Source: a virus
DNA length: 54,681 nucleotides
Direction: 5' to 3' (one strand)
IMG/VR virus record: IMGVR_UViG_3300028571_000037
Coordinates: 1 to 54,681 of that record
The notes below the pieces were generated by a model that was not told the DNA's origin, did no database searches, and saw only the letters and a list, made by a program, of their open reading frames with translations. This document shows positions 6,931 through 37,449 of the stretch, piece after piece (the stretch's first letter is position 1; each line of letters starts with the position of its first letter). The translations under genes and the position numbers were made by a program.

Positions 6931-7185
6931 TTATAGGACCTTTTTTGACAAATTCCAACCCTGTCTCATTATGGGTGTCCTCTTAGTTTTTTGTTTTACC
7001 AAAAAGTAGACATCATATTTGAGATCGTATAATTTATCGGGATTTGGTGTCGTGTCTAATACAATACTCGCATCCATATAGACGTGAGACTTGTTTTTAT
7101 TGACACATTCTATCGAAATAGACGATAAAAATGGGTATTTATCCACTAACTCTTGAGGGTTGAACTTATTAAATGGACATATCAT
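6931..7185 (-). CDS. Small protein, local alpha/beta pattern
   Basis: 84 residues, MICPFNKFNPQELVDKYPFL. It has the KYP..SSISIE strand followed by SHVYMDASIVLD and a basic end. Its start is preceded by ATATTTAT (7199-7192 on the minus strand, 6-nt gap), back to back with the same motif serving the plus-strand gene at 7233. Function unknown. Confidence 0.7.
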   Translation of the reverse strand: MICPFNKFNPQELVDKYPFLSSISIECVNKNKSHVYMDASIVLDTTPNPDKLYDLKYDVYFLVKQKTKRTPIMRQGWNLSKKVL

Positions 7186-7232
7186 ACCCCAATAAATATT
7201 ATCTTATATTTATTAAGTATAAAAAATGTAAA

Positions 7233-7493
7233 ATGATTAGATTAGTCGAACTTTTTATGAAGATAATGACTGATGGTACAGGAGTATCATCAAAACGATT
7301 CTCAGGTCTTGTAACCCTCCTAAATTTGATTGTATTGGCATATATTACAACAGTGAAAAATGGTCAAACACCCGAATATATTTTTGATACGCTTGCATTA
7401 TTGTCGGCATCTTTTTTAGGTTTGACTACCATTGAGAAAATTTTTGGAAAAAAGAAAATTGTGTCAGATGAGTCAACAGGAGAACAACATTAA
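7233..7493 (+). CDS. Holin-like two-span membrane protein
   Basis: 86 residues from MIRLVELFMKIMTD; an earlier start at 7173 would give an improbable N-terminus. GTGVSSKRFSGLVTLLNLIVLAYI is followed by a second span (LALLSASFLGLTTIEKIF) and a basic tail. This KRF-plus-two-spans layout is common among small phage membrane proteins annotated as holins. No endolysin is immediately adjacent; two hydrolases lie within 3.5 kb. Holin function is inferred. Confidence 0.65.
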   Translation: MIRLVELFMKIMTDGTGVSSKRFSGLVTLLNLIVLAYITTVKNGQTPEYIFDTLALLSASFLGLTTIEKIFGKKKIVSDESTGEQH

Positions 7494-10107: not shown

Positions 10108-10950
10108 TTATGACAATAATTTATAGTACTCTTTGAAATGCATTATTCTGTCTTTCAAACCAATCACACCACCGTTTACTCTTTTAGTAACAGCCGTTAC
10201 GGTAATATCATCAGATCCTTTATCGGCAATCAAGTTTAGTCCATTCTTAGAAAAAAACCATCCGGCAGATGCTAAAGCATAGTGTGTTGCCACCAAATCG
10301 GGATTTTTCACGGTATCCTCACCGATTGCCTTCGCAAATGCGGTATAATTTGCTTTACCAGTCAACTGAATATATCCACGACCTCTAAAGATGTATCCTT
10401 CTTTTGTTGATTCATCACCATTACCCATTCTACCGCCATAAACTTTTGAAGCGATCTTTTCAGGATTTCTTGCATAAGATTCGGATAAATTGCCAGGAAA
10501 ATATTTTGGAAATATTTTTTTCAAACCATCAGCAGAGTAATTTAAGTTTTCTTGAACCGCCTTGAAGTTTCCTGATTCATGTCCACATTGTGCTAAAAAA
10601 TGTGCCAACCGAAGTGGTGTATTAATTTGAAACTTTTCCATTACCGTTGGAATTTGGGAAATGACCGCATCGGGAATATGACCCTTGAGTTTTGACAAAT
10701 CGATATTACCTCCCTTAGTAATTACCTTATCTTCTGATATCGTTTCTTTAGCTACAATCGCTCCGCCGATTACACCAAGTTTTGTTAATGTTGCAGTTCC
10801 AGCAATTCCATCGGCAACTAAATTGTTTTTTACTTGCCATTCTCTTAGTTTGGTTTCAGTTCCAGCTCCGAATATACCATCAGATGTAAGTCCTAATTTT
10901 GCTTGAAGTTTTTTTACATCCTCTCCTTTGGATCCTTTTTTTAGTATCAT
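10108..10950 (-). CDS. Endolysin: PG-binding domain plus GH19 lysozyme
   Basis: 280 residues. Residues 1-60 are a PG_binding_1 domain (LKKGSKGEDVKKLQAKLGL, DGIFGAGTETKLREWQ, DGIAGTATLTKLG). Residues ~90-280 are a GH19 chitinase/lysozyme fold with AHFLAQCGHESGNF (catalytic Glu in HES) and the FRGRGYIQLTGKANY signature. It would cleave glycan strands of host peptidoglycan at lysis. No signal peptide, so release needs a holin; candidates are at 7233, 14074 and 39756. ATATTTAT lies 17 nt upstream on the coding strand. Confidence 0.95.
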   Translation of the reverse strand: MILKKGSKGEDVKKLQAKLGLTSDGIFGAGTETKLREWQVKNNLVADGIAGTATLTKLGVIGGAIVAKETISEDKVITKGGNIDLSKLKGHIPDAVISQIPTVMEKFQINTPLRLAHFLAQCGHESGNFKAVQENLNYSADGLKKIFPKYFPGNLSESYARNPEKIASKVYGGRMGNGDESTKEGYIFRGRGYIQLTGKANYTAFAKAIGEDTVKNPDLVATHYALASAGWFFSKNGLNLIADKGSDDITVTAVTKRVNGGVIGLKDRIMHFKEYYKLLS

Positions 10951-10978: not shown

Positions 10979-12166
10979 TTAAAATTGAATTCTACCCGAA
11001 TAACCCGGAACAATAAGATAAAAATTTTGTGTTCCACCTCGTAAAAGGTTTCCTGTTGTTATTGATGACAATCCAGGATATAAGGGACGAACGTTCGTTG
11101 TTGAATTTAATATGGACGTAAATTCAGTCGGAGTAAAATAGGATGATCTTGATATAGACCATGAATTAATCAATCCTGATTTTAATCCCAACAAAAGATA
11201 TTGATCAGATACGTTTATTCTACCATCATTATTTAAATCAAATCGATGAAATGTCAAACCGTTAGTTGAAACTAAACCGAATATAATATCTGAAACTCTT
11301 TTACCATCATTATTAGATAATTGTTGAGTTGGGGTAGGTGCGGTTACTTTTACTCTGAATTGAAAATTATTAATGTCTAATCCTGTTGATAGAAATTGAT
11401 ATCTTCCTTGTGAGTCCGTGTTTACCGAACGATTTAGAACAAAATCATTTGAGACAACCGATGGTGAAAATCTGTATTTTTGGGGTGTACTTATAGACCA
11501 CACACTCGCGTTTTTACCACCTACAGGAACAACTTTACTACCGTCAATATTTGTAAGACCTAATGTTGCTCCATTTGCACCACATTGAGGTTTGGTTTGA
11601 AAGTTTATATCAATAACATTTGTTGTCTCGTTTAAAACAATTTGGAACGTATGAAGGTTGGATCTACACCCATAATGTGGTACGTTATTGAAATTGAATA
11701 CAAGTACCCTGTTTGGTGCAGACCCTGTGGTGTAATAATTCATATTACCTGTATTCGGTAACAAATCTTCCCAATCTGCTAAAATAGTATTTTTCGGAGC
11801 ACCACCATTTGGTAAAAATTGTGCGGTATATCCGTTGGTCTGACCCGCAGAAAATCCAATCCAACCATTTGAACTCACATAAAACTGAGTGTAGTTGTTT
11901 CCAAAATAATTGAATGAGAAACCAATATTATAGGGACCCTGAACACAATCGTCACAACCTGTTAGTGAAGATCCACCTGTATAATTGTAATTTGAATATG
12001 TTGGTTGGGTAATATCATAATTTGATACTGATATGGTGTGAAGTTCAACAGGTATATTGGCAATACCCGTCTGATCAGCATCATACACATAACCTGAGAA
12101 CGTAAATTCTTGAGCATGAACAACACCGAACAAAAAGAATGATATTACTATCAACAATCTTTTCAT
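10979..12166 (-). CDS. Secreted beta-rich protein with dockerin-like repeat
   Basis: 395 residues from the ATG at 12166. Signal peptide MKRLLIVISFFLFGVVHA then Q. An N-terminal beta domain is followed by a region like Bacteroidota adhesin domains (NYFGNNYTQFYVSSNGWIGF, CGANGATLGLTNIDG). At ~318-336, FDLNNDGRINVSDQYLLLG is a dockerin-type Ca-binding repeat, a single copy. The end (FYLIVPGYSGRIQF) lacks the T9SS tail motif. Overlaps the upstream stop. Likely exported and able to bind a cohesin-like partner such as the 15485 protein; pairing is inference. Confidence 0.8.
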   Translation of the reverse strand: MKRLLIVISFFLFGVVHAQEFTFSGYVYDADQTGIANIPVELHTISVSNYDITQPTYSNYNYTGGSSLTGCDDCVQGPYNIGFSFNYFGNNYTQFYVSSNGWIGFSAGQTNGYTAQFLPNGGAPKNTILADWEDLLPNTGNMNYYTTGSAPNRVLVFNFNNVPHYGCRSNLHTFQIVLNETTNVIDINFQTKPQCGANGATLGLTNIDGSKVVPVGGKNASVWSISTPQKYRFSPSVVSNDFVLNRSVNTDSQGRYQFLSTGLDINNFQFRVKVTAPTPTQQLSNNDGKRVSDIIFGLVSTNGLTFHRFDLNNDGRINVSDQYLLLGLKSGLINSWSISRSSYFTPTEFTSILNSTTNVRPLYPGLSSITTGNLLRGGTQNFYLIVPGYSGRIQF

Positions 12167-12618
12167 CACATTTTTGAAATACTAACTTCTAACGCTTTTT
12201 TTACCGCCGCTGCAAATGTAGATTTTTCAAACGGTAAGTTTTCATCTTTGAGTTCAGCAAAACTCGCCTTTACGGATAACTTAGCAGATCCCTCACCTGA
12301 ATATTCTACACCGTCTTTTACAACAATAACTTTCACAATCGTATTTTTCTTTTTGATCATAAAAGGTCCAATGTTTATACCCACAGTTGGTGACTCAATT
12401 GATGTAATTGCAACATTCACGGGTAAACCATCTTCACAGATAGAATACTTTTCTCCCATCAACTCCTCAGTCAATTGTTTGAGACCAAATACAAATTTCT
12501 TTGATGATAGATCTGGATTTTCTGTTAGGTTATCTACTTTGGAAACCGAATAACAATTTTGTGAATATAACACTGATGTTGACATCAACACCGATAAAAT
12601 AAAGAATAATTTTTTCAT
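12166..12618 (-). CDS. Secreted periplasmic protein of the surface module
   Basis: 150 residues. Signal peptide MKKLFFILSVLMSTSVLYS then Q. The mature part has strand-rich segments (NIGPFMIKKKNTIVKVIVV, GEGSAKLSVKASFAEL) and ends with a helix FAAAVKKALEVSISK. That ending resembles the last helix of the CsgG-like protein at 14439 and may reflect a shared fold. A curli-accessory role is a guess from position. Both ends overlap neighbours, so it is in an operon. Confidence 0.7.
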   Translation of the reverse strand: MKKLFFILSVLMSTSVLYSQNCYSVSKVDNLTENPDLSSKKFVFGLKQLTEELMGEKYSICEDGLPVNVAITSIESPTVGINIGPFMIKKKNTIVKVIVVKDGVEYSGEGSAKLSVKASFAELKDENLPFEKSTFAAAVKKALEVSISKM

Positions 12619-14081
12619 AGTAATATTTTTCCTCCTGTTAATATCTGATAGTTTAGAATACTACCTTTTACTTGATAAGTACCACTAATACTTATGTTGT
12701 ACTTGAACGATTTAGAGATGGTGTAATCCCATGAACTAAACGGAACAATAAGAAGTCCCGAGTCCCACCACTTCCCATCGTAAAACTTAGTGAAGGGAGA
12801 ATACACACCCAAAAGTAATATATTACCAGATATTTTTTTGTTTGCGGTAAATGGAATAAAACCACCACCCACAGCAGATAAGTTTGTAAAAGGTTTTCCA
12901 GCTAATCCCCCGATAGTGAAATTCAATCCTCCCATAAGATTTACTTTACCAAATCTTTTTGAGTCCATAACCGTAGTGGTGTTGAAAATATTTCTTTTGA
13001 AATCCACCATAGATGAGTTGGCGAAGATCAATGTATTGGTTTTTGATCTGTTACTTCGTGCTCCGTAAATAGTTAGATTGGTATTGTTGATACTTGTTGT
13101 AAAGTTCAAAAGAAGACCCTTAGCAAACGTATTGTTAGTGTTTGACTTGGTCATTGACATAGTACCTTTGAATTGATTAGAACCATCCTCATTGCTTCTG
13201 AGAACAACTAAGTCGCCAGTCCCTATCAAAGATCCAACTTTTACACGTGATCCACCTTTACTACTTGATGATGAAGAAACATTACTGATTGATGCTGTGG
13301 TTCCACCTTGTCCTCCACCTGATGTTTCGTTTTGTTTTGTAGTACCACTATTTGTACCCGATTGGGTATTACTACCCCCACCTTGACCTGTATTCGTACC
13401 CGATTGGGTACTATTTCCTGTATTTGAAGAAGGAGGATTAGTTACAGGCTGCTTAGTCTGTCCACTTCCCCCTTGAGAAACATTACCTGATTCGTTAGGT
13501 GTTCCTCCTTCTTGATTACTTCCTTCGCTAGTTGAAGGATTATTAGATTCGTTTCCTCCTTGTTGAGATCCTCCACTCTGAGACGTTGAACCATTTGATG
13601 AATTTCCTTGAGAATTATTACTCGTTCCATTGGTAGTTGTGTTTTGTTGATTATTCGTAGAGTTTCTATTTCTACGAGGTCCATTACTCGATGATGATGT
13701 TGCATTTGAAACCGAGGTTGACAACGTATTAGTTGACATGGACGATGCGGCTGTAATTGACGTAAGTGTCGATATGATATTTTGTGTAATTATTTGGTTC
13801 TGTCCCGTCTGTGTTGCGGTCAATAATTCATCACAAGGTTGATTGGTTGATTGTTGTGATACTGTGTTTACCCAGTTTTCAAAAACACCATTTTGAAAAT
13901 CTGATTGAGAAAAAGTACCTAAAAATCCCAAATAGTTGATAGTTACACTTTGTCCTGATGAAATAAAAATAGTTTTAACGGTTTTGGAACAAGGGTCCAC
14001 ATAAGAATATGTGAACCCCTGCTGACCAAAAACTGAAGTTGTTATAAAAAATAATATTATTAAGAATATTATTTTATTCAT
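12615..14081 (-). CDS. Secreted protein with Ser/Asn/Gly/Gln low-complexity linker and beta-rich C-terminus
   Basis: 488 residues from the ATG at 14081, which overlaps the previous stop. Signal peptide MNKIIFLIILFFITTSVFG then Q. Residues ~20-125 are a small folded domain with Cys. About 130-280 is almost pure S/N/G/Q/T, like amyloid or spacer segments. About 290-488 is rich in alternating strands (GLLLNFTTSINNTNLTIYGA, MGGLNFTIGG) and could be a beta barrel in the outer membrane. Placed beside a CsgG-like gene, it may be a secreted fibre or a surface anchor. No exact family recognised. Confidence 0.75.
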   Translation of the reverse strand: MNKIIFLIILFFITTSVFGQQGFTYSYVDPCSKTVKTIFISSGQSVTINYLGFLGTFSQSDFQNGVFENWVNTVSQQSTNQPCDELLTATQTGQNQIITQNIISTLTSITAASSMSTNTLSTSVSNATSSSSNGPRRNRNSTNNQQNTTTNGTSNNSQGNSSNGSTSQSGGSQQGGNESNNPSTSEGSNQEGGTPNESGNVSQGGSGQTKQPVTNPPSSNTGNSTQSGTNTGQGGGSNTQSGTNSGTTKQNETSGGGQGGTTASISNVSSSSSSKGGSRVKVGSLIGTGDLVVLRSNEDGSNQFKGTMSMTKSNTNNTFAKGLLLNFTTSINNTNLTIYGARSNRSKTNTLIFANSSMVDFKRNIFNTTTVMDSKRFGKVNLMGGLNFTIGGLAGKPFTNLSAVGGGFIPFTANKKISGNILLLGVYSPFTKFYDGKWWDSGLLIVPFSSWDYTISKSFKYNISISGTYQVKGSILNYQILTGGKILL

Positions 14082-14352
14082 AAGTCTCTTCATCATTTTT
14101 TTTACCATGTTTTGCAGTAATAAACTTGTCCACGGACGCGATTCCAAATGAACCTAAAGTTATCACCATAAATCCATCGAAAATAAATTCATTTATTGGC
14201 ATTTCTTGTCCGTGGAATCCTGTCCAAATATCGACACCTAGACATACTACCATCATTATAAATGCGCCAAAACCAACAACAGATTTTTCATTAATATCAT
14301 TGTCGTCCATAAACATTCTCTTTAAAAAATTTGGATTTTCTTTCTTTTTCAT
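14074..14352 (-). CDS. Holin-like two-span membrane protein
   Basis: 92 residues: basic N-terminus, two hydrophobic spans (VVGFGAFIMMVVCLGVDIW; FIFDGFMVITLGSFGIASV) and a basic/acidic tail. The layout matches the holin-like protein at 7233 (span, IFDG.., span, K-rich end). Lies between CsgG-like and low-complexity genes; could help lysis or belong to the secretion module. Confidence 0.65.
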   Translation of the reverse strand: MKKKENPNFLKRMFMDDNDINEKSVVGFGAFIMMVVCLGVDIWTGFHGQEMPINEFIFDGFMVITLGSFGIASVDKFITAKHGKKNDEETYE

Positions 14353-14438
14353 TTTATTTTTATTTTATTTTTTGTTATGGTATAGTTACCTTTTTTCCTC
14401 ACAAGATGAGAGGAGTATAGATAGATTTATCTATGTTT

Positions 14439-15167
14439 TTAACTTCTTAATTTACCTTTTTTTATGAGTTTTTCCACCACTCTTACGGATGCGGTTTCTA
14501 AAGCCTTTTTTGTTGATACCCCTACGGTCGATTTATTGAAAGTTGGTCCTTCAATATCTCCTAAAGTTGTTGAGGTTTTTGTTGTGATAGCACGTCCCTG
14601 ACCTGAACCAGTGATGACCTCACCACTTTCAGCATCTACAAATCTAATTTGTAATCCCAATTGGGTTACTTGTTTGATTGTGACACCTGAGGTTTCTACA
14701 ACTTCATCTTCACCAACTGAAAAATCATAGACTTCTATGTAAACAAAATATTCAGCCAATTTAATTTTACCTTTTCCATCAACTTTGTTTTCGGTAAAAC
14801 CTTTATTGGACGCTTTGAATTGTTGTACCATTCTTTCTTTGATTTCTAACTTGTCTTCGGTAAAAACAAAACGACTAGTCTCTTCCAAATATTCCAAAAC
14901 AATATTGGTTACACCCATACCAACACGAGCGTCTTTTAGTTCAGGATACATTTCGTAAACCTCATCACTGATTCCGATTTTTAGAATTTGAATTGGTACT
15001 TGGATGGTATCTTCGTATGGTGGTAATGATTCAAGGGATTTCTTTTTCTCAAAGTTTGCCGTGTATTCCTCCGTCTTCACCGTTCCGATTTGTTGGGCGA
15101 AAACTTGGGTTGAAACCAAACATATTGTTAGAAAAAATAATTTACCAAGGTGCGTCTTCACTCTCAC
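14439..15167 (-). CDS. CsgG-like secretion channel / curli assembly family protein
   Basis: 242 residues from a GTG at 15167 (an alternative GTG lies at 15161). Signal peptide ...ICLVSTQVFA then Q; there is no lipobox, whereas cellular CsgG is a lipoprotein. Visible CsgG-family features: VGMGVTNIVLEYLEETSRFVF, LQIRFVDAESGEVITGSGQG and the terminal helix STKKALETASVRVVEKLIKK. CsgG forms an outer-membrane export channel for curli. Here it probably opens a pore or assembles with the adjacent secreted proteins. Confidence 0.8.
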   Translation of the reverse strand: MRVKTHLGKLFFLTICLVSTQVFAQQIGTVKTEEYTANFEKKKSLESLPPYEDTIQVPIQILKIGISDEVYEMYPELKDARVGMGVTNIVLEYLEETSRFVFTEDKLEIKERMVQQFKASNKGFTENKVDGKGKIKLAEYFVYIEVYDFSVGEDEVVETSGVTIKQVTQLGLQIRFVDAESGEVITGSGQGRAITTKTSTTLGDIEGPTFNKSTVGVSTKKALETASVRVVEKLIKKGKLRS

Positions 15168-15459
15168 TTTTTTCTTCTTTTACAGGTTTTTCCACAATTG
15201 TTTTTTCTTTGATGACTGTTTGACCACCACCTTGATTTGAATTTGTTGATGAGTTATCAACATTTAAGATAATCGGTGCGGGTGCTTGTGTTTGTTGAGC
15301 AGGTGCTACTTCTTCAGTTTTCTCCTCCTCTTCAACACCAAAGATTTCGTTAAATTGAGTTGTGATGTAAGCACCAGCTGCTGTAGCAATTGTGGTTACA
15401 AGACCAATGACCGTTTTCTTGATCGTTGACATTCCACCTTCTTGAGATTCTTCTGACAT
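15142..15459 (-). CDS. Membrane-anchored Pro/Glu-rich protein
   Basis: 105 residues. A membrane helix at ~12-35 (TIKKTVIGLVTTIATAAGAYI) is followed by an acidic, Ala/Pro/Gln-rich extended tail ending KSESEDAPW. Overlaps the CsgG-like start by 26 nt, so it is co-translated. It may span the periplasm toward the channel protein. No known family. Confidence 0.7.
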   Translation of the reverse strand: MSEESQEGGMSTIKKTVIGLVTTIATAAGAYITTQFNEIFGVEEEEKTEEVAPAQQTQAPAPIILNVDNSSTNSNQGGGQTVIKEKTIVEKPVKEEKSESEDAPW

Positions 15460-15484
15460 AATTTTGATTTTTATTTTATTGGGT

Positions 15485-17374
15485 TTATTTGACTTTCAGA
15501 ATTTTTTTTCTGAAAAGTTTCTTTTCATTCTGTAAAACAGCTAAGTATTCACCAGTTGGTAGATATCCTAAATCGAATGTTCTTGTGTATTCACCGATGT
15601 CGTACTTGCCGTTCAATATATCAATTTGTAATCTACCATTTAAATCATAGATCCCTAAAGTAACATTACCTGGTTCAAAAATTTTGAACTTCAAAGTAGT
15701 TTCACCTTCTGTTGGATTTGGGAAAAGTACCATATCATTATATTCAAAATTACCATCGGTTTTGAAGATTTGTAAGATTCCGTCTGTTGGTGTAATTTTT
15801 AAGTCTTTTGATGAACGATTTCCAGCAAATTTACGAGTGACATATAGAGGTGATTTGTTCCAATTGACTTGAGTTGATTTAGCACGGAAAACTAATGTAA
15901 AAAATATCTCACCATCTTGTATCAAATTTTGATTGTTTGACGGATCATATCCTCCCCACTCAACAACATTGTCATTTGGGTTAATATATGAGACCCAGTT
16001 CCCTGGTTTTTGTTCGTTTACAAGTTCTACAAATTCTAACAAATCAGAGTCGTATTTCATAGCAACTTGGAGAGACCCAAGTTCTACCATTCCCGTTTTT
16101 AATTTTACAGGAATATTCACCAAGTCACCTTCATTTACCGCCAAGGTAGGAAAGTTTACTTCAATTGTCTCCAAGTCCATATCGTAATGAGTTGTTACAT
16201 CTATGATACGTTGGTTAGCGTTGTTTGGGTTCACAATTTCAATCGGAATCATACGAGCCATTTTGAAACCAGTACCATTAGCATCACCAGGTGAAGCTAC
16301 ATAATATGTAACTGAGTCCGGTTCATTACTACCAATTAACTTTGTGAAGTTTGTTTGACCAGGTATAGTACTCCTCAAGTTTGAAGTCGAACCATTAATT
16401 GTGTTATATTCTGTTTGACTAAAGAACAATACGTCGGATACTGAATTGACCCAAGATGTAAATCTTCCTGACACTCTAGCAAAAATCGAATAAACATCCG
16501 ACACAGAAATGGAGTTGTCACCGTTTACATCAGAAGTGTAGAAATCAAAACCTGAGGGTTGATTTACACCCAAGATAAATTTATTTACTTGTTGAGCATC
16601 TGTAGTTGTTACGATATTTCCATATCCCAAAGTATCACCCTTCACGTTGATTCTAACGTTCCATGCTGAAGTATCAACACTTACATTAGTAAAGTCCCAT
16701 CTTCCATCAACACCCGAAGTCGATGTTGCCACCGAAGACCAAGAAGATGAATTTTTTAGTGACTTTTCCAATACTACGGGAATATTTTTAGCTCCCAAAC
16801 CTGTTACATTTAAGAAACGACCTTTATAGGTAAACGTTTGTGGTAAAAATGCCCCACCAAAATTTTCTAATCCGAGTGTGTAATCATTACCTAATTGCGA
16901 AGTTGCTAGTTGTGTAAATGATGATCCACCCACAAAAGTCATTGAAGTTGGGTTCAGATACGTAGTTGACAAGGTTGAGTTATGATTGAGTGTTAGAGTA
17001 AACATCGATCCATTTGGTAAAGTAAAGTTTGGATCTGTACCCGTATAGGTCATTGTAATTGTTACATACCCCGCGGTGGGGTTATCCCTATATTGTAGAT
17101 AATTCGAGAAGTTTGTGTTTGACACAATAATTGAATCAACACCCGAAAATGCTGTTTGATCATAAAAAACCCTGAACTGTGTTGCCGTTACTTTATCTGT
17201 GGTGCTATTGTAGTAACATAATCCTATGTTAGTTTTACCATCAGAGTAAGAACCTAATTGATAAGTTTGGTCTAGTGTGATAAATGCACCTGAGTTTGTG
17301 GGTGTTGGACATGTTTGAGCCCGTGTAGTCAAGAATAAAAGAAACATTCCGACAGTCAAAATAACTTTTTTCAT
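15485..17374 (-). CDS. Cohesin/dockerin surface protein with type IX secretion sorting domain
   Basis: 629 residues. Signal peptide MKKVILTVGMFLLFLTTRA then Q. An N-terminal beta domain (20-150), a CNA-B-like segment (~180-245, YKGRFLNVTGLGAKNIPVVL), a dockerin-type loop (DVNGDNSISVSDVYSIF, ~282) and a cohesin-like domain (~405-520, LGSLQVAMKYDSDLLEFVE). The last ~80 residues form a T9SS type-A sorting domain: LFPNPTEGETTLKF, IYDLNGRL, YLPTGEYLAVL and a KKILKVK end. Such tails direct export through the host T9SS and attachment at the cell surface. First gene of the minus-strand module. Confidence 0.9.
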   Translation of the reverse strand: MKKVILTVGMFLLFLTTRAQTCPTPTNSGAFITLDQTYQLGSYSDGKTNIGLCYYNSTTDKVTATQFRVFYDQTAFSGVDSIIVSNTNFSNYLQYRDNPTAGYVTITMTYTGTDPNFTLPNGSMFTLTLNHNSTLSTTYLNPTSMTFVGGSSFTQLATSQLGNDYTLGLENFGGAFLPQTFTYKGRFLNVTGLGAKNIPVVLEKSLKNSSSWSSVATSTSGVDGRWDFTNVSVDTSAWNVRINVKGDTLGYGNIVTTTDAQQVNKFILGVNQPSGFDFYTSDVNGDNSISVSDVYSIFARVSGRFTSWVNSVSDVLFFSQTEYNTINGSTSNLRSTIPGQTNFTKLIGSNEPDSVTYYVASPGDANGTGFKMARMIPIEIVNPNNANQRIIDVTTHYDMDLETIEVNFPTLAVNEGDLVNIPVKLKTGMVELGSLQVAMKYDSDLLEFVELVNEQKPGNWVSYINPNDNVVEWGGYDPSNNQNLIQDGEIFFTLVFRAKSTQVNWNKSPLYVTRKFAGNRSSKDLKITPTDGILQIFKTDGNFEYNDMVLFPNPTEGETTLKFKIFEPGNVTLGIYDLNGRLQIDILNGKYDIGEYTRTFDLGYLPTGEYLAVLQNEKKLFRKKILKVK

Positions 17375-17395: not shown

Positions 17396-17403
17396 ATAAA
17401 TAT
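17396..17403 (-). promoter_or_regulatory. ATATTTAT motif for the surface module
   Basis: Minus-strand ATATTTAT in the 27-nt divergent gap, 21 nt before the ATG at 17374; overlaps the start of the plus-strand gene at 17402. Confidence 0.35.
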
Positions 17404-17863
17404 GAAGAATTTTCTTGTTTTCTGTTTTTTTTTAGTACCATTATTTACTTTTGGACAAATTAGAGTATTGGATGTTGGTAACGGATGGAATGTTAAGGTT
17501 TGGTCCGCACTAGAAGTTATTAAAAAAACTGATTTAGAGAAGTATGATAGAGTGATTATTCATTGTAAGGAAATTGGATTCTGGAATGGAAACTTTTCTA
17601 CGATAGAGGATGGAAATAAAATTATACTGTCAAAAACAGAACTCGATTATGGTTCAATAAATAATATTGCTTGTACTATAGTTCACGAATCGCGTCATCT
17701 TATGTTGGAAAAATCACAAACCAAGTGGGATAAGGATTTCGAAGAATTTATGTGTTATGATTATGAGTTAAATTTTGCTATGAAGATCGATAATATAGAA
17801 AAATGGTTAATTGAACATATTATAGATACACGAAACAAATACGCGAAAATAATTAGTCTGTGA
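17402..17863 (+). CDS. Secreted HExxH-type zincin-like protein
   Basis: 153 residues. Signal peptide MKNFLVFCFFLVPLFTFG then Q. IVHESRHL at ~101-108 is an HExxH zinc motif, and a Glu in FEEFMCYDYELNF ~25 residues on could be the third ligand. Small for a protease. It would act in the periplasm or outside the cell. Peptidase activity is inferred from the motif alone. Divergent from the surface module. Confidence 0.7.
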   Translation: MKNFLVFCFFLVPLFTFGQIRVLDVGNGWNVKVWSALEVIKKTDLEKYDRVIIHCKEIGFWNGNFSTIEDGNKIILSKTELDYGSINNIACTIVHESRHLMLEKSQTKWDKDFEEFMCYDYELNFAMKIDNIEKWLIEHIIDTRNKYAKIISL

Positions 17864-18548: not shown

Positions 18549-18815
18549 ATGGATTTACCATTCTCACAAGAAAATATCGATGGAAAAATTTTGAGGACAT
18601 TTTCATCAGATGTTGATGATGAAGAACTCAAATGGCACTTTGACCTATGTGATCGAAAAGTAAAAGTGATCGAAGGTACAAATTGGGAATTACAGTTCGA
18701 TAATCAACTTCCTGAAAAACTTATCCCTAATAAAGATTTTTTTATCCCCAAAGGAATTTATCATAGAGTTATAAAAGGAGAAGGTGATTTAGTTGTATTG
18801 ATCCAAGAATTTTAG
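18549..18815 (+). CDS. Small cupin-like protein
   Basis: 88 residues from the ATG at 18549. The ending DFFIPKGIYHRVIKGEGDLVVLI resembles the second half of a cupin barrel (IPxGxxH). A metal-binding His is present but the first cupin motif is weak. Such single-domain cupins occur in phages with unknown roles. Its stop overlaps the minus-strand nuclease stop. Confidence 0.65.
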   Translation: MDLPFSQENIDGKILRTFSSDVDDEELKWHFDLCDRKVKVIEGTNWELQFDNQLPEKLIPNKDFFIPKGIYHRVIKGEGDLVVLIQEF

Positions 18816-19393
18816 TTATTCATTAAATATTTTTTATAATCACTATATGTTGGTTTTTCGTTTGCAAAATAGTACTTGTATGTATTACCTTTATGGGTAA
18901 TTGTTTTGGTAAAACCTGTGGGAACCAAAGCTCCTGTCATCAACTCGGGTTGTTTGGAATCAAAATGTACATCAATTCTTACCTTTACATCACCTGTCTT
19001 AGACAACTCCCTTTCGTGTGCCTCTAAAAATCTCCAAGTCCCACGGTTCAAATACTGATTCTGAAGAGCACAATTTAAGTAAGTGAAAGTTGTATATAAC
19101 ATTTCTTTGGTACAATTGAAGGCCGCTGCTGGTGCCAAGTGACCCTTGTCCCAAACATTATTTTCATAGTCCTTATTGTCTGAGGTCCAAATTTTAGTAT
19201 CCTTATAAAAATCCATACCCTCCCTTGATGCAGTCCCGTTGGGACATTTTATGTAATACTCCAACCATAATGGTTGTTCGTAAACCTCAGAATATTCACC
19301 CTTAAATATTGTTGTCTCAAACGGTACCCTTTCTCTTGTTTGACCAAAAAGTAAAACAGGTAACAGTAATAATAAAAAAATCATCTTTCTCAT
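18812..19393 (-). CDS. Secreted DNA/RNA non-specific endonuclease (NUC1 family)
   Basis: 193 residues. Signal peptide MRKMIFLLLLLPVLLFG then Q (a second ATG at 19384 is possible). The active site WDKGHLAPAAAF (~81-92) corresponds to the family DRGH motif, with H as general base. YLNCALQNQYLNRGTWRFLE supplies the metal-binding Asn and the NxGxWxxLE signature. The first position is Lys in place of Arg. It would degrade nucleic acids in the periplasm or outside, unusual for a phage protein. Confidence 0.88.
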   Translation of the reverse strand: MRKMIFLLLLLPVLLFGQTRERVPFETTIFKGEYSEVYEQPLWLEYYIKCPNGTASREGMDFYKDTKIWTSDNKDYENNVWDKGHLAPAAAFNCTKEMLYTTFTYLNCALQNQYLNRGTWRFLEAHERELSKTGDVKVRIDVHFDSKQPELMTGALVPTGFTKTITHKGNTYKYYFANEKPTYSDYKKYLMNN

Positions 19394-31541: not shown

Positions 31542-31564
31542 AGGTTTTGGATTATAAATGTTAG

Positions 31565-31650
31565 TACCACCTGCCGGAATCGAACCGGCACGGACCCTTC
31601 GGTCCATTTGATTTTAAGTCAAACTTGTCTACCTGTTTCAACAAGGCGGC
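31565..31650 (-). tRNA. tRNA-Leu(TAA)
   Basis: Minus strand, class II. The acceptor GCCGCCT (31650-31644) pairs with AGGTGGT (31572-31566), discriminator A. The anticodon loop CTTAAAA carries TAA. Variable arm TGGACCGAAGGGTCC, T-loop TTCGATT. No encoded CCA. Confidence 0.95.
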
Positions 31651-31681
31651 AACTTGTATAATTATAATAACTTAATTTGAG

Positions 31682-32173
31682 TTAGACAAATGAAACTTTG
31701 AAATCATCCCAAAGTGTTCCTACATCATTGGATAGAACAAAAGAGAAGATACTTGGTTCATATGGTTTTTGTTGAGGTTTCATACCTGCTTCCTCGGGTG
31801 TACGACTACCTTTTTTTATATTACAAAAATGACAACAGGTCACAAGGTTACTCCAAGTATTCTTACCCCCTCGTGATTTGGGGATTACGTGGTCTATTGT
31901 GAGATTTTTTTTACCACCACAATACACGCATTGGTTATGGTCTCGAGCATATAGACGTTTTCTACTGAGTTTCAGATGAGATGCTATATACCTAACGTAA
32001 CTCAAAAGACGTATTATCAAAGGTCTGGTAAACTCCCCGACGCTTGTCACAATCTTTTTGTTATCCTCACGAAGTACCTCAGCCTTCCCTTTTATTACCA
32101 AGATAAAACCCCTTCGGGTGCTTGTGACATTCAAGGGTGTATAATCTGAATTCAACACAAGTACCTTATCCAT
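31682..32173 (-). CDS. HNH endonuclease (McrA-like)
   Basis: 163 residues. N-terminal VLNSDYTPLNVTSTRRGFIL and a C-terminal HNH fold: CVYCG (~83), LTIDHVIPKSRGGKN (His of HNH with D), NLVTCCHFCNIKKG (Asn and second CxxC). The complete bbα-metal site suggests an active nuclease. This family is common in bacteria and phages and is not obviously a homing enzyme. Confidence 0.9.
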   Translation of the reverse strand: MDKVLVLNSDYTPLNVTSTRRGFILVIKGKAEVLREDNKKIVTSVGEFTRPLIIRLLSYVRYIASHLKLSRKRLYARDHNQCVYCGGKKNLTIDHVIPKSRGGKNTWSNLVTCCHFCNIKKGSRTPEEAGMKPQQKPYEPSIFSFVLSNDVGTLWDDFKVSFV

Positions 32174-32304
32174 ATATTAAATTTTCTATAAACAAAAATA
32201 CACAAAATTTTTCACTAAGATATAGTATTATATATTTTCTTCAGGTTCACAACTGGTGACTCCGATATCTTATTGGACATTACTATAAATAGTTATGATA
32301 AGGG

Positions 32305-32335
32305 TTTGTCTTGTGATTTTTTGGTTGTATCTTTA
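32305..32335 (+). promoter_or_regulatory. Promoter for tRNA-Arg
   Basis: TTTG (32305-32308), 19-nt spacer, TATCTTTA (32328-32335), 17 nt before tRNA-Arg(TCT). The remaining 32174-32304 stretch is AT-rich with nothing else recognised. Confidence 0.5.
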
Positions 32336-32352
32336 CCGAGGTAATACAATCT

Positions 32353-32425
32353 GCCTCCGTAGCATAATGGATAATGCAACACACTTCTAATGTGTCGATT
32401 GCTGGTTCGAGTCCAGTCGGAGGTA
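32353..32425 (+). tRNA. tRNA-Arg(TCT)
   Basis: The acceptor GCCTCCG pairs with CGGAGGT (32418-32424), discriminator A. The anticodon stem-loop ACACA CTTCTAA TGTGT carries TCT, reading AGA, a favoured codon in AT-rich genes. T-arm GCTGG TTCGAGT CCAGT. Confidence 0.95.
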
Positions 32426-32477
32426 CAAAATCGATATCTTGATATGGTATAATTCTGCCAATCAATATCGATTATTC

Positions 32478-32508
32478 TTGTTTTTTTAATTTGTTTGGCA
32501 TACATTTG
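32478..32508 (+). promoter_or_regulatory. Bacteroidota-type promoter abutting start codon
   Basis: TTG (32478-32480), 20-nt spacer, TACATTTG (32501-32508), 4 nt before the ATG at 32513. Confidence 0.6.
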
Positions 32509-32512
32509 CGCT

Positions 32513-33109
32513 ATGAAAATCTTATTCCTTGATAATGACGGTGTCATCTGTTTAAATAATAATTGGGGTTCTCGTCACAAAAAACAAAAAAAGTGGGGAG
32601 GACGAAAACTATCTATGTCATCGAACGAAATTCCAATTCAATACCGATTTGATAACTTTGATACAAAGGCTGTCAAAGTATTGAACGAAATCTTGGAACA
32701 GACTGGTGCTGAAATCGTTGTTAGTTCAGATTGGAGGTTTCACGCTACTTTGGAAGAATTGGGTGAATACTACCTATCCCAGGGAATTGTAAAAAAACCA
32801 ATTGCTACCACCGATATGTTCAAAGACATTTTCCCCCGAGAATGGTCCGCTTTGAGATTTCGAGCAGATTTGGAATTGGAAAGAAGTATGGAGATCCAAC
32901 ATTGGGTTGATAATCATCCTGAGGTAACACATTGGGTTGCTGTTGATGATTTGAATATGAGTGTTGAGTTCTTGGGACCAAGATTTGTTGCCTCAAATGG
33001 TACAGATGGTCAAGCTGGCCTCAAAAACTTTGTGTTGACACCTTCGGATAATCAAGGTATCAAACAATCGGGAATAAAAGATAAAATACTAAGATACTTA
33101 TTACTATGA
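32513..33109 (+). CDS. HAD-superfamily phosphatase-like protein
   Basis: 198 residues from the ATG at 32513. FLDNDGVI (~5-12) is HAD motif I, although D-x-D is D-N-D; VVSSDWR (~69-75) fits motif II; WVAVDDLN (~136-143) is motif IV. This set resembles HAD domains in nucleic-acid repair proteins of phages. Probably a phosphatase, possibly acting on nucleic-acid 3' ends. Shares ATGA with the next gene. Confidence 0.8.
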   Translation: MKILFLDNDGVICLNNNWGSRHKKQKKWGGRKLSMSSNEIPIQYRFDNFDTKAVKVLNEILEQTGAEIVVSSDWRFHATLEELGEYYLSQGIVKKPIATTDMFKDIFPREWSALRFRADLELERSMEIQHWVDNHPEVTHWVAVDDLNMSVEFLGPRFVASNGTDGQAGLKNFVLTPSDNQGIKQSGIKDKILRYLLL

Positions 33110-33696
33110 TTATTATAGACGACTTTATACAAGATTTAGATTTTTTAGATAAAATCTCTGAGGATAAATCTTTTTGGGAACACGGTTACCGTTGGTATGA
33201 CGGATGGTGGAAATCTCCGATGGAAGATTTGAGACACGAACTGATCTATAAACTGTGGGGGGAAAATTCTCCACATCATAATGTTCAGGTTGCAGGTTTT
33301 GAACATTGGATTGGTGATTTTGGTCCCGATAACAAAGATTCTATGTTGAATATGGATTGGTCTTTGAAACCCCATTTTGATAAGGATGAAACACTTTGGG
33401 GTAAAAACAAAGAAATGGTCGGACCAAAAATTGGTACGGTTTTTTATCCTTGTCGTGAAATTGATGAAATCGAAGGTGGTATGTTATATATTTGGGATAA
33501 ATATGAGCATGCTAACTTGAGTCCTCAAGGTTGGGTAACTAACCTAACTCAAGAACCTCAGATTATAAGTCCAAAATTCAACAGATTAATTATTTTTGAT
33601 GCTTCCAAACTTCACGCAGTATCCTATGTAAAATCGGGACGAAGAAGAGCTATTGCGGTAAACTTATGGGAAAATAAACCAGAAGAATTCAAGTAA
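33106..33696 (+). CDS. 2OG-Fe(II) oxygenase
   Basis: 196 residues. Start overlaps the HAD stop. LKPHFDKDE (HxD, ~89-91), LIIFDASKLHAVSYV (distal His, ~169) and GRRRAIAVNLWENKP (2OG Arg) mark a prolyl-4-hydroxylase-like core. GGMLYIWDK is the usual EGG strand. Host-type promoter shared with the HAD gene. Substrate unknown. Confidence 0.88.
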   Translation: MIIIDDFIQDLDFLDKISEDKSFWEHGYRWYDGWWKSPMEDLRHELIYKLWGENSPHHNVQVAGFEHWIGDFGPDNKDSMLNMDWSLKPHFDKDETLWGKNKEMVGPKIGTVFYPCREIDEIEGGMLYIWDKYEHANLSPQGWVTNLTQEPQIISPKFNRLIIFDASKLHAVSYVKSGRRRAIAVNLWENKPEEFK

Positions 33697-33709
33697 TCCA
33701 TCTTTCAAT

Positions 33710-33826
33710 ATGAATTGTATTGTCTGTGGAAAATCGACTGATCGAGTGGAGGAAGATCATATTATAAATGGATCACACCTATCGTGTTTATTAGATAATG
33801 AGGAACTTGACAAGACGATAATTTAG
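33710..33826 (+). CDS. 38-residue CxxC protein
   Basis: ATG frame MNCIVCGKSTDRVEEDHIING ... DKTII (shortened). The initial CIVC with a later HIINGSHLSC could bind one zinc. It starts 14 nt after the oxygenase gene and fills the gap to 33849. Confidence 0.55.
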   Translation: MNCIVCGKSTDRVEEDHIINGSHLSCLLDNEELDKTII

Positions 33827-33848
33827 TGTATTTTTCTAAAAAAAGAAA

Positions 33849-34490
33849 ATGGCTAAATATTCTCTCCTTGTCAATGGAACCGGTTTCGATGGTTCCGCCC
33901 ACGTTCTAAAATCTGAAGAAGTTCAGAAAATCCGAGATTTCCAAGAAGAAGCGGGTTACAACGCATTGTATGAAATGTATTCTGACCTTCCCGAACTTTT
34001 GGAAAATTATGACCATTATGACACCAACTATTGGGTTACTTCAACCGCTATGGCAACACCAAGACTTCACTTTGTTCTCGTGGATGAAGAAGAAAAGATT
34101 GTTTGGGATGTAAAACCCGAAGAATTTTCTGAAGTAAATTCCGAAACCACTGGTTTCAAGTTCCCTGAAGACGCTGAAGATCATGTCAAAGAGATTGATG
34201 CTTATCCACACGAAGGTAAGGAAAATATCTTGTTGGTTTATGAGGAGACCAAAGGTACTATGATTGATTTCGTTGTTGAAAGTGACGAAGCACCCAAACC
34301 TATTGATTTCTCATTTACCGTTCAAAGTTTGGAAACTCCTGAATATGAAATAGAATTGGTTGATAAAGTGTTCTTCAAGGGCACTCAACTTGAATCAGTA
34401 TATGAACAAGAAAACTACACAGGTAAAGGTTTAACTGTTGCAATCTATACTATGGAGGACTTGGATAGTGATTCGGATTCTGAAGAATAA
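33849..34490 (+). CDS. Unknown acidic beta-rich protein
   Basis: 213 residues. LLVNGTGFDGSAHVLKSEEV then alternating strands; ends in an acidic tail DSDSDSEE. No signal peptide or membrane segment. Unrecognised; the composition suggests a soluble, perhaps DNA-mimic-like or inhibitor protein, which is speculative. Confidence 0.75.
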   Translation: MAKYSLLVNGTGFDGSAHVLKSEEVQKIRDFQEEAGYNALYEMYSDLPELLENYDHYDTNYWVTSTAMATPRLHFVLVDEEEKIVWDVKPEEFSEVNSETTGFKFPEDAEDHVKEIDAYPHEGKENILLVYEETKGTMIDFVVESDEAPKPIDFSFTVQSLETPEYEIELVDKVFFKGTQLESVYEQENYTGKGLTVAIYTMEDLDSDSDSEE

Positions 34491-34525
34491 TTTAAAATAA
34501 GGTAGGAATCTTATTTTTTTTTATT

Positions 34526-34533
34526 TACCTTTG
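34526..34533 (+). promoter_or_regulatory. TACCTTTG -7 element next to start codon
   Basis: TACCTTTG, 4 nt before the ATG at 34538; no obvious -33 TTG. Confidence 0.4.
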
Positions 34534-34537
34534 AATT

Positions 34538-35185
34538 ATGAAAATAGATAGAAAAAAATTAGAGTGGTATCTAAAGAATATCCGAACTAACAGTAAGGAT
34601 CAGGAGATCACCGATGAGGAATTGGTTGATCAACTTGCTACATGGATCGAGAGAAATCCTAAATGTGTCGATGTAAAAGGTGTAAGTGACCATGGTCGTT
34701 TTTACTATTCAACCGTTGGTTATGGTGTCTTCTCTTTGATGGGTGAGAAATACCGTATGGGTAGGGTTGAAATCTTCGACAGTGAAGATGAATCAGGGTA
34801 TGCTGTTAGTGAAGGTATCTATACAATGCCCCACGTTGCTGCAAACCAATTCGAAGACTTCATCAATTCATTGCAAACTGATCTGCCAATAAACATCGAA
34901 ATTGGATCTCACGAATGGTGTGAGAAAGAATGTGCCACAGATCTTGGTTTCGAAACACCTGCCCAGATGAGGGACCCTGAAAAAATCAAAGAGTTCCAAA
35001 AAAAGAAAAACGATGAGTATGCGATAGAACGTGGATTCAAAGATTTTGATGAGTTGTGGGCAAATAGCAAATTCGGTGGTAAAGCAAAAGAACAAGAATT
35101 TATACAAATAAATCAAGATAACCCAATAACAAAGGGTAGTACTGCTTTGATAAGAAACCCAAATAGAAATGAAATTTCGGAATGA
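34538..35185 (+). CDS. Unknown protein
   Basis: 215 residues. N-terminal helix (MKIDRKKLEWYLKNIRTN), a central beta region (GRFYYSTVGYGVFSLMGEKY) and a charged C-terminus (KKKNDEYAIERGFKDFDELW). No domain recognised. The stop codon lies inside an 11-bp tandem repeat, so slippage there could alter the C-terminus. Confidence 0.75.
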   Translation: MKIDRKKLEWYLKNIRTNSKDQEITDEELVDQLATWIERNPKCVDVKGVSDHGRFYYSTVGYGVFSLMGEKYRMGRVEIFDSEDESGYAVSEGIYTMPHVAANQFEDFINSLQTDLPINIEIGSHEWCEKECATDLGFETPAQMRDPEKIKEFQKKKNDEYAIERGFKDFDELWANSKFGGKAKEQEFIQINQDNPITKGSTALIRNPNRNEISE

Positions 35186-35205
35186 TTTCGGAATGATTTC
35201 GGAAT
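35173..35205 (+). repeat. 11-bp tandem repeat, three units
   Basis: Units AATTTCGGAAT, GATTTCGGAAT and GATTTCGGAAT; the TGA of the upstream gene is formed at the first junction. Confidence 0.8.
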
Positions 35206-35240
35206 GATGAACTTAAACACCCAAGAAATAAAAAAAAATT

Positions 35241-35564
35241 ATGCAAAATTTTATTAATAAAAAAGTATTAGTAACTACACAAGGTTGGTTCTATGGTAAA
35301 GATGGACGTTCATATAAGGGGGTTCATGGAACATTAAAAGCAATTCACGAAGCGGGTAAAACACTTGGATTTATTCCCAACCGAGCACACGCTAACTGGT
35401 TTATAGAAATCGGTGAAATGGTAATTATGGGATGTCAAGTAATGTATATTGTTGAATGTGAAACCATAAACACTGGTAATGTTACCGATTGGACAACTGA
35501 GGCTCAAAGTGAAACTGGCATAAAGGAATATCAACGTCCAACAGCTATTTATGTGGTATCTTAG
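35241..35564 (+). CDS. Unknown protein
   Basis: 107 residues. Beta-rich with INKKVLVTTQGWFYGKDGRS and GEMVIMGCQVMYIVECE; SH3- or KOW-like by appearance, no firm match. Soluble. Confidence 0.7.
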   Translation: MQNFINKKVLVTTQGWFYGKDGRSYKGVHGTLKAIHEAGKTLGFIPNRAHANWFIEIGEMVIMGCQVMYIVECETINTGNVTDWTTEAQSETGIKEYQRPTAIYVVS

Positions 35565-35594
35565 AATTACCACTAACTTTCAAGACCAAATTAG

Positions 35595-35798
35595 ATGAAT
35601 AGTCCAATCACAGGTAAACCGATGAAGTTTATATTTGATGAGCATAAAGCTACAAGTAATAAGACAGGTGATGTAACTTTTAGAATCTACTATTGGTTGT
35701 GTCAGGACAGTGGTGAAAAGTTCATTTTAGACAGAGATGAAATTAATTTAAACAATAATTCGGAAATAATCCGAGTTACTAAACACAATTTTGCATAA
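35595..35798 (+). CDS. Small unknown protein
   Basis: 67 residues, MNSPITGKPMKFIFDEHKAT. Resembles a zinc-ribbon-like small protein in its opening (PITGKPM), but only one Cys is present, so any metal site is lost. Unknown function. Confidence 0.6.
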   Translation: MNSPITGKPMKFIFDEHKATSNKTGDVTFRIYYWLCQDSGEKFILDRDEINLNNNSEIIRVTKHNFA

Positions 35799-35881
35799 TA
35801 TACTTGATTGATTTATTGTGCAACATATGGATCACATCCTTATAATGTCTTATAAAAGTAAGAAAACAAATACAAATTATT

Positions 35882-36235
35882 ATGGCACACCCGTTACAAC
35901 ATGCAAAATCTTCGGTAAATAAATTCGGAGGAAAACCCGAAGACTATATTCACCTTCACAATTGGTTAGACGAAACAAAGGCGTGGTTTGGACATTCATT
36001 TCATAGAATGTTTCGTCATCACTCTGAAGGTATCTTTGAGATGGAAAAGATTTTCGGTCCTGAGTTCAAAAACAGTGATGGTAAAACAGTGTATACTCGT
36101 TACGTTGGTGAACAACACGTAAGAGAAGATTGTAACAACTATATCCCAACAGCCAAAGAATGGATTGATGGATTGACCGCTGAAAAAAAACCTATGTGGA
36201 TGATCCGTACTATGGAATTAAACATTAAAGATTAG
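35882..36235 (+). CDS. DUF6915-like protein
   Basis: 117 residues. MAHPLQHAKSSVNKFGGKPE, HRMFRHHSEGIFEMEKIFG, YTRYVGEQHVREDCNNYIP and the WIDGL end match the DUF6915 pattern, small proteins of phages and bacteria with unknown function. Many His residues but no defined active site. Confidence 0.8.
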   Translation: MAHPLQHAKSSVNKFGGKPEDYIHLHNWLDETKAWFGHSFHRMFRHHSEGIFEMEKIFGPEFKNSDGKTVYTRYVGEQHVREDCNNYIPTAKEWIDGLTAEKKPMWMIRTMELNIKD

Positions 36236-36242
36236 TATTTAT
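36235..36242 (+). promoter_or_regulatory. GTATTTAT start-proximal motif
   Basis: GTATTTAT, 4 nt before the ATG at 36247. Confidence 0.45.
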
Positions 36243-36246
36243 CGTT

Positions 36247-36927
36247 ATGACACAAAAGGAAAAAATCTTATTTAAAATGATGAGTTCATACATTCAGAAA
36301 ATGGGTTGTGATAGTGCCGAAATGATGGGTGAATATTGGGACGACGAACTCTTTAGTGACCGAAATTTTAATTGTAAAGGTGGTGGAACATATAAATTTC
36401 CATTTGATGCAAGTGATGTTATAAACGGTTGGGTGGATAGTTTAGATTTAGATATCAATTCATACGAGGACGAAGGTCTGAATTCAGTGTGGTTAGAAAT
36501 CAGTCCAAAAGATAATAGTATATCAGTAATTGCCGGTTTTTCTGAAACCCAATTGGGGGAAGAGCAACTAATTGTTGAAACACTATCTGATAAGTGGGGT
36601 GTTGAGGGGCTAAAAAAAGAACTTGAAAAAGAATTCGGAGATTTCAAATTAATCGAAGTTCAATTCAATGGTTATGGTGACTCAGGTGGTTTGGAAGGTA
36701 TAAAAGTTGACGGTGAAGAATATGGTTCAGACCAAATTCCATATTCATTAAAGAACGTACTTTATGGTATGTTGGGTGAATTCGGAGGATGGGAAATTGA
36801 TTCAGGATCTGAAGGATTTTTCGATATAGATTTGGAAAATGATAAAGTTGTATTACATTTTCATTGGAACGAACAAGTTGATAGACCTGAAACACTACAC
36901 CGAGAAGAAATTGAAACTAAAATTTAA
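36247..36927 (+). CDS. DUF6878-like protein
   Basis: 226 residues. The second half has VQFNGYGDSGGLEGIKVDG and GWEIDSGSEGFFDIDLENDK, the GSGDSG and GWEINDG signature of DUF6878-type proteins. The first half is a separate unknown domain. Ends 15 nt before the RNase P RNA. Confidence 0.75.
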   Translation: MTQKEKILFKMMSSYIQKMGCDSAEMMGEYWDDELFSDRNFNCKGGGTYKFPFDASDVINGWVDSLDLDINSYEDEGLNSVWLEISPKDNSISVIAGFSETQLGEEQLIVETLSDKWGVEGLKKELEKEFGDFKLIEVQFNGYGDSGGLEGIKVDGEEYGSDQIPYSLKNVLYGMLGEFGGWEIDSGSEGFFDIDLENDKVVLHFHWNEQVDRPETLHREEIETKI

Positions 36928-36942
36928 CTTATACAGAAATAA

Positions 36943-37174
36943 ATCAACAAAGTTCTGTCGCTCTACGGAGAGGAAACTCAGGACATCACACGCTTAAGGT
37001 GGGAGATATAAGTCAACAAACTTATAATGGTTAGTTATAAGTCCTTATCCTTATATCACTTTACCACCGAGGATGCAACCCAAAACAGTCCATGACGGTG
37101 AGCTGGTCGGACAAGGTGGGGGCAAATAGACTAATGACAGATTAAATACAGAATCTTGGTTATACTTTGTTGAT
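36943..37174 (+). ncRNA. rnpB: RNase P RNA, minimal bacterial type
   Basis: About 232 nt closed by an 11-bp P1 (ATCAACAAAGT 36943-36953 with ACTTTGTTGAT 37164-37174). P2 is TCTGTC (36954-36959) with GACAGA (37136-37141). Conserved blocks line up with bacterial M1 RNA: AGAGGAAACTCAGGACA near the 5' end, ACAGTCCATGACGG then GGACAAGG and GGCAAATAGAC, and ACAGAATCTTGGTTATA at the 3' end. P3 is reduced to CTCT ACGG AGAG. Shorter than cellular versions (~350-400 nt). It lies 6 nt before the tRNA array, whose 5' ends it would mature with host RnpA protein. Confidence 0.9.
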
Positions 37175-37180
37175 ATAAAC

Positions 37181-37252
37181 ACCTCCTTAGGTTAATGGAT
37201 AAACCTCTTCACTACGGATGAAGTATTGGGAGTTTGAATCTCTCAGGGGGTA
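37181..37252 (+). tRNA. tRNA-Arg(ACG)
   Basis: The acceptor ACCTCCT pairs with AGGGGGT (37245-37251), discriminator A. The anticodon loop CTACGGA carries ACG, which would need A34 to I34 editing to read CGN. T-loop TTTGAAT. Confidence 0.9.
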
Positions 37253-37263
37253 CAAAAAAATAC

Positions 37264-37293
37264 TTGGATATTCAAAAATTTGGTGTATCTTTG
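37264..37293 (+). promoter_or_regulatory. Promoter for tRNA-fMet and following RNAs
   Basis: TTG (37264-37266), 19-nt spacer, TATCTTTG (37286-37293), 11 nt before the initiator tRNA. Confidence 0.7.
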
Positions 37294-37304
37294 TATAACA
37301 AAAT

Positions 37305-37376: not shown

Positions 37377-37380
37377 CAAA

Positions 37381-37440: not shown

Positions 37441-37449
37441 CTCTTTCAA

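Follow-up and report, generated by a model that had tools for sequence, protein, structure and literature searches.

A virus-specific gene block of Bacteroidota phages that may equip the infected cell with a sugar-binding surface adhesin

Why would large Bacteroidota phages spend about 6 kb on what appears to be a surface module of a cell that they are about to kill? The locus that raises this question lies in IMG/VR virus record IMGVR_UViG_3300028571_000037, of which positions 1 to 54,681 form the window analysed here (54,681 nt), and its genes were read from the open reading frame (ORF) listing of that window. Seven ORFs follow one another contiguously on the minus strand from 17374 down to 10979 and encode proteins of 629, 105, 242, 92, 510, 150 and 396 amino acids (aa), as the initial annotation, made from the sequence alone, had described. 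Five of them open with a Sec-type signal that, as read from the sequence, is cut before a Gln, and this Gln is invariant in the family alignments, which agrees with the five signal peptides counted earlier. We propose that the block is a virus-specific envelope module through which the infected Bacteroidota cell comes to bear a sugar-binding adhesin on its surface, and we put the probability of this reading at about 0.5. The seven genes are as follows:

15485-17374, minus strand: COH629, a predicted exported protein with dockerin-like, cohesin-like and type IX secretion system (T9SS) type A sorting domains
15142-15459, minus strand: P105, with a single N-terminal membrane anchor, a Pro/Gln/Lys-rich tail and a terminal D/E-x-P-W-type motif
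14439-15167, minus strand: CSGG, a predicted exported protein of 242 aa with a CsgG fold (AlphaFold and Foldseek, alignment)
14074-14352, minus strand: P92, a small two-transmembrane protein, holin-like by layout (from the sequence)
12615-14096, minus strand: SNG510, a predicted outer-membrane 12-strand barrel (AlphaFold and Foldseek, alignment)
12166-12618, minus strand: P150, a short, predicted exported homologue of CSGG (hhalign)
10979-12169, minus strand: DOC396, a predicted exported protein with a variable adhesin-type head and a conserved dockerin-like base (family Pfam scan, alignment)

Whether these genes belong together, and to a virus, can be judged from their distribution. Searching IMG/VR with the 242-aa CSGG returned 86 relatives, 80 of which were kept, and profiles of the neighbouring genes built from these recovered the order COH629, P105, CSGG, SNG510, followed by P150 and DOC396 in either order. 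Linkage was then tested from two other starting genes, COH629 (in loci with enough downstream DNA) and SNG510 (in loci with enough upstream DNA). Starting from COH629 gave 71 loci, every one of which carries P105, CSGG and SNG510, while those found through SNG510 (n = 64) carry CSGG in every case, P105 in 59 and COH629 in 42. Many of the 232 loci fetched come from the same or near-identical contigs; over all scans the CSGG proteins group into 98 clusters at a threshold of 98% identity and into 53 at one of 90%, and the module-bearing contigs reach several hundred kilobases. The block is also present, as gp013-gp019, in the isolated Flavobacterium phage vB_FspM_immuto_2-6A (immuto; 160 kb, host Flavobacterium sp. 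LMO8), whose CSGG is 61% identical to that of the window and whose counterpart of COH629 is split into gp014 and gp015; GenBank already labels gp013 a lectin protein and gp015 a cohesin protein. The initial annotation had proposed looking for the same gene order in other Bacteroidota phages, and it is found both in the IMG/VR relatives and in immuto. Against phages, DNA searching at near-identity returned no match, the relatives being too diverged. The core of P105, CSGG and SNG510 is a tightly linked, virus-specific module that is widespread in Bacteroidota viruses.

Cohesins and T9SS tails are typical of cellular proteins, and the region could on that account be host DNA joined through misassembly, a doubt already voiced in the initial annotation. 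In bacterial assemblies, however, the CSGG family occurs on two contigs only, both with module and endolysin genes near, and one of these two is the sole occurrence among 199 Flavobacterium genomes, leaving 198 without it. The same block in isolated immuto already refutes misassembly, and the 53 distinct CSGG clusters and 232 loci speak against it as well, so that its probability is practically nil.

Where the products of the block might go is suggested by COH629, in which three regions can be placed:

16463-16642, minus strand: dockerin-like region (aa 245-304), from a Pfam Dockerin_1 match below cut-off and a PDB profile match
15764-16177, minus strand: cohesin-like domain (aa 400-537), from Pfam Cohesin matches of relatives and PDB cohesins matched there
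15488-15730, minus strand: T9SS type A C-terminal sorting domain (aa 549-629), from Pfam and NCBIfam

The sorting domain exceeds the curated cut-offs of both Pfam (35.4 vs 27 bits, E = 1.3e-8) and NCBIfam (34.9 vs 23 bits, E = 1.1e-8). When 31 diverse COH629 relatives were scanned with Pfam, Por_Secre_tail was present in all 31, Cohesin in 26 (best E = 9.5e-14) and Dockerin_1 in 11 (best E = 2.5e-6); in immuto, gp015 alone is above cut-off for Cohesin and Por_Secre_tail. The COH629 family profile matched a dockerin, cohesins and T9SS tails of the PDB in that order, each at its own place, the dockerin weakly (E = 0.018). In the dockerin-like regions of both COH629 and DOC396 one complete calcium loop is conserved per family and the first loop is degenerate. 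By its sorting tail and Sec signal COH629 is a predicted T9SS type A cargo, and the translocon protein SprA is over cut-off in 60 of the 61 Flavobacterium genomes tested. The description of a 629-residue protein with a cohesin-like domain and a T9SS sorting domain has thereby held up, and the view that the tail addresses a phage protein to the host export machinery is well supported as a reading of the sequence. Phage proteins with T9SS sorting tails are known from Cryophage (PMC7468147), where the cargo varies between strains, and from crAss-BACON cluster 2 (PMC6949934). Unlike the present module, these are single genes (endoglucanase, GH39 and PA14; BACON) and, as described, come without cohesin/dockerin, CsgG-fold protein, barrel or fixed operon.

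What such a cargo might display is indicated by DOC396, which is itself without a T9SS tail. In its family the base at the C-terminus is conserved, with a calcium-type loop (D-x-N-x-D-x6-D) that is invariant, and the heads vary: among 32 relatives Pfam finds Lectin_C in 18, Laminin_G_3 in 9, PA14 in 3 and GEVED in 3. Comparison of the window with locus L003 gives identities of 95% for CSGG, 90% for P150 and 83% for COH629, and for DOC396 of 51% over the C-terminal half and 29% before that. Locus L018 is more distant from the window in the other genes and yet 83% identical across all of DOC396, while in other locus pairs whose COH629 proteins are 85-93% identical the DOC proteins align only across their last 155-204 residues. 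By these comparisons the heads of the DOC396 family are swapped. The swappable lectin-type head had been overlooked in the initial annotation, which spoke of two dockerin-like proteins; only one separate protein of this kind, that of 396 aa, is found, and the 150-aa protein is a shorter CSGG homologue (hhalign probability 97.5%, E = 7e-12).

We infer the cohesin-dockerin pairing of COH629 with DOC396 from their co-occurrence. Because COH629 carries both dockerin-like and cohesin-like domains and DOC396 the dockerin only, exported COH629 copies could even form head-to-tail chains, fibres that would end in a DOC396 adhesin riding on the T9SS-tagged scaffold. The phage would in this way build a cellulosome-like adhesive structure on the infected cell by means of the host T9SS; we regard this elaboration as unlikely. 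Cellulosome scaffolds resemble the module in that cohesin and dockerin-like domains sit on different exported proteins of the same operon, and differ from it in that the module is phage-borne, has lectin heads in place of enzymes and bears a T9SS tail. A search of an open-access library returned no paper that, as judged by title and abstract, deals with phage-encoded cohesin-dockerin pairs.

If the adhesin parts are to be held at, or passed through, the outer membrane, the core proteins would have to span the envelope. CSGG had been annotated as a CsgG-family channel, of which the fold stands and the channel does not as stated. By sequence there is no CsgG match for the 242-aa protein in Pfam, NCBIfam, PHROGs or PDB profiles, none of 30 family members matches Pfam CsgG at E <= 1, and hhalign against E. 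coli CsgG gives a probability of only 0.7%. The AlphaFold model (pLDDT 72.6), in contrast, finds E. coli CsgG structures best in Foldseek (E = 1.7e-7, TM 0.4-0.5), followed by PelC and HpaA, although CSGG superposes on CsgG only loosely (rmsd about 11). A single extended hairpin (139-157/160-177) is modelled, in which the family has conserved acidic residues including an invariant Glu; the third strand (183-198) is left unpaired ahead of the final C-terminal helix, and beyond the conserved anchor the sequence is shorter than its counterpart in E. coli CsgG. For these reasons we accept the CsgG fold, at moderate model confidence, and not a pore or channel role, as CSGG may be without the second membrane hairpin. 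A numerical test for membrane-facing strands, with E. coli CsgG as its only control, did not discriminate. Some CSGG relatives have a lipobox and would be lipoproteins. The closest structural analogy to CSGG and SNG510 is PelBC (PMC12141448), in which a lipoprotein ring of PelC, with a CsgG-like fold, sits on a separate outer-membrane barrel; PelBC differs in exporting polysaccharide, no Pel genes were seen here, and PelC is only a secondary fold match.

The partner in this analogy would be SNG510, whose ORF reaches a TTG at 14147 and whose real start, judged by relatives, is probably at 14081-14096. The model divides it as follows:

about 13731-14018, minus strand: N-terminal domain (residues 25-120)
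about 13236-13730, minus strand: disordered linker (residues 121-285)
about 12621-13232, minus strand: barrel of twelve strands of 10-17 residues (residues 287-490)

Foldseek matches the barrel to NalP, KdgM, FapF and Tsx. Pseudomonas FapF, a recurrent match, likewise has a 12-strand barrel after a helical region and a linker, but NalP and KdgM score equally well or better and no Fap partner genes were seen. The initial annotation had taken this S/N/G/Q-rich protein for an amyloid-like secreted one, and with the CsgG fold of CSGG and the low-complexity linker of SNG510 a curli-like system can be envisaged, in which a CsgG pore exports SNG510 as amyloid; real curli operons do occur in pelagiphages (PMC9599517). 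However, alignment shows that the composition of the linker is not conserved over the family, and canonical curlin repeats number 0 in SNG510, against 5 in the CsgA control, and are present in only 1 of 80 relatives. Since the pattern used detects CsgA repeats but misses CsgB and phage curlin-like proteins, so that diverged repeats could escape it, this negative leans also on the barrel model. Barrel model, unconserved linker composition and missing canonical repeats together make SNG510 most likely an outer-membrane barrel protein and not a secreted amyloid, and with CSGG also lacking a CsgG sequence match and a predicted second hairpin, amyloid export is very improbable here.

Phage curli (type VIII secretion) genes are nevertheless the nearest phage precedent, known from pelagiphages and the OM43 phage Melnitz (PMC7029224, PMC9599517, PMC9004378). 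Like the module, they form a phage operon of a CsgG-fold protein with surface-directed partners, and the roles guessed for them, sibling capture, exclusion and lysis, are the same. Their CsgG is 37-40% identical to that of E. coli and is accompanied by CsgF and curlin-like proteins, whereas the present module has no CsgG sequence match and no curlin, and instead a barrel, lectins, cohesin/dockerin and T9SS parts. Phage curli genes and phage T9SS cargo are thus known separately, and their combination appears to be new.

The same barrel and a sugar-binding protein could instead serve uptake, as in a small Sus-type system: barrel, ring and lectin would supply the infected cell with captured glycans or nutrients. 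The co-occurrence of the two and the presence of the sugar porin KdgM among the best fold matches point that way, but the block has neither a TonB-dependent receptor plug nor an enzyme, and the T9SS tail and cohesin/dockerin parts would be left unexplained; we think scavenging very unlikely. The third core protein, P105, resembles TonB in layout: its membrane anchor is N-terminal, its tail is rich in Pro, Lys and Glu, and an acidic-x-P-(K)-W motif is conserved at the C-terminal end. CSGG may be its docking partner.

A second class of loci (for example L049, L053, L064 and L074) bears on how far the core depends on T9SS. These retain P105, CSGG and SNG510, and have in place of COH629 and DOC396 a protein of 549-555 aa and a larger one; the domains seen in the latter are LCCL, Lectin_C or PA14, with a weak match to cohesin in a single case. 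A PDB profile search with the 549-aa protein gave chance matches only. Modules of this class, each with two large, predicted exported proteins, lie at 1500-5741 in L049, 1819-5381 in L053, 4360-8314 in L064 and 3206-7172 in L074. As class 2 keeps the core without the tail, T9SS would not be essential to the core, which seems functional without it, while sugar-binding or adhesion domains persist.

In the surface-display model that we favour, P105 would sit in the inner membrane, CSGG and P150 in the periplasm and SNG510 in the outer membrane, and this envelope-spanning core would assemble in the manner of PelBC, with a ring seated on a barrel by which the adhesin parts are anchored or exported. 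COH629 (in class 1) would cross the outer membrane via the host T9SS, its cohesin binding the DOC396 dockerin and holding the adhesin pair together, while DOC396 would either be carried out with COH629 or leave through barrel and ring. On the infected cell the scaffold would then present the lectin that the dockerin bears; most likely this would mask surface glycans or cross-link them, so that rival phages are excluded or sibling cells held close, and the head swaps would follow strain-specific glycans. Several observations weigh against this model. The window's own cohesin and dockerin regions fall below the Pfam cut-offs (Dockerin_1 E = 0.0025, 18.4 bits vs 22.9), and its own DOC396 head matches no family. 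The class 2 proteins tested show no T9SS tail, confidence in the CSGG model is only moderate (72.6), and that of SNG510 is low overall (57.9; barrel blocks 58-85). A further point is a neighbouring gene that the initial annotation had passed over:

10108-10950, minus strand: GH19-type endolysin, a module neighbour that is not constant (Pfam and PHROGs)

Starting 28 bases beyond DOC396 on the same strand, this endolysin hints at a lysis module, in which P105, CSGG and SNG510 would act at the end of infection to open the outer membrane or weaken it, alongside the endolysin and P92, which is holin-like and lies within the block, with the adhesins as passengers. Lysis has been proposed as a role for the CsgG of Melnitz (PMC9004378), and an endolysin is found in 10 of the 37 loci having 8 kb on both sides. 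In most loci, however, no endolysin is within reach, and in immuto it is about 8 kb off. P92 is not constant in the module, being present in 34 loci in the first scan, and a distant relative of it, likewise a small membrane protein, is encoded at 7173-7493 on the plus strand. As the endolysin is not constantly nearby, and lectin heads, cohesin/dockerin and T9SS tail would go unexplained, we rank a lysis-only role lower and consider it unlikely.

The exported proteins might also decorate the virions at release, the alternative given in the initial annotation, or, once the cell has lysed, tie progeny to glycans and host debris. Virions commonly bear lectin and Ig-like domains, and the exchangeable heads resemble receptor-binding variation. 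Against such decoration stand the Sec signals on all adhesins, the position of the immuto block beside replication and nucleotide genes and not structural ones, and the lack of any match to known structural proteins in PHROGs, which leave it a doubtful explanation. Of the options raised at the outset, rebuilding of the infected-cell surface would be the likeliest; as its presumed purpose, exclusion of rivals, cell-cell contact and virion capture are inseparable on the basis of sequence alone.

Other genes of the window lie outside the block. An exported DNA/RNA non-specific endonuclease is encoded at 18812-19393 on the minus strand (Pfam Endonuclease_NS, E = 1.8e-21); a relative occurs in 65 of the 232 module loci, and immuto gp012, just ahead of the module, is annotated as the same type. 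It might act in the periplasm as a nuclease on incoming DNA. A small exported protein is encoded divergently from COH629 across a gap of 27 bases (17402-17863, plus strand) and shows a zinc-peptidase-like motif, HExxH (HESRH), together with a weak SprT-like match. The window further holds ten tRNA genes at 31564-40287, eight of them within 37181-40287, and a Clp-type ATP-dependent protease ATPase at 49001-51022.

The paper on the LMO8 phages (PMC7077304) does not mention these module genes, and one on Bacteroidota phage expression (PMC9723584) contains data on neither lectins nor secretion. With immuto and its host Flavobacterium sp. LMO8, an isolated phage-host pair is available in which the display model can be tested. 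If that model is true, it would give a concrete answer to the role of phage CsgG-like and T9SS-tagged proteins, and the phage would be using the type IX secretion of its host as a display route.

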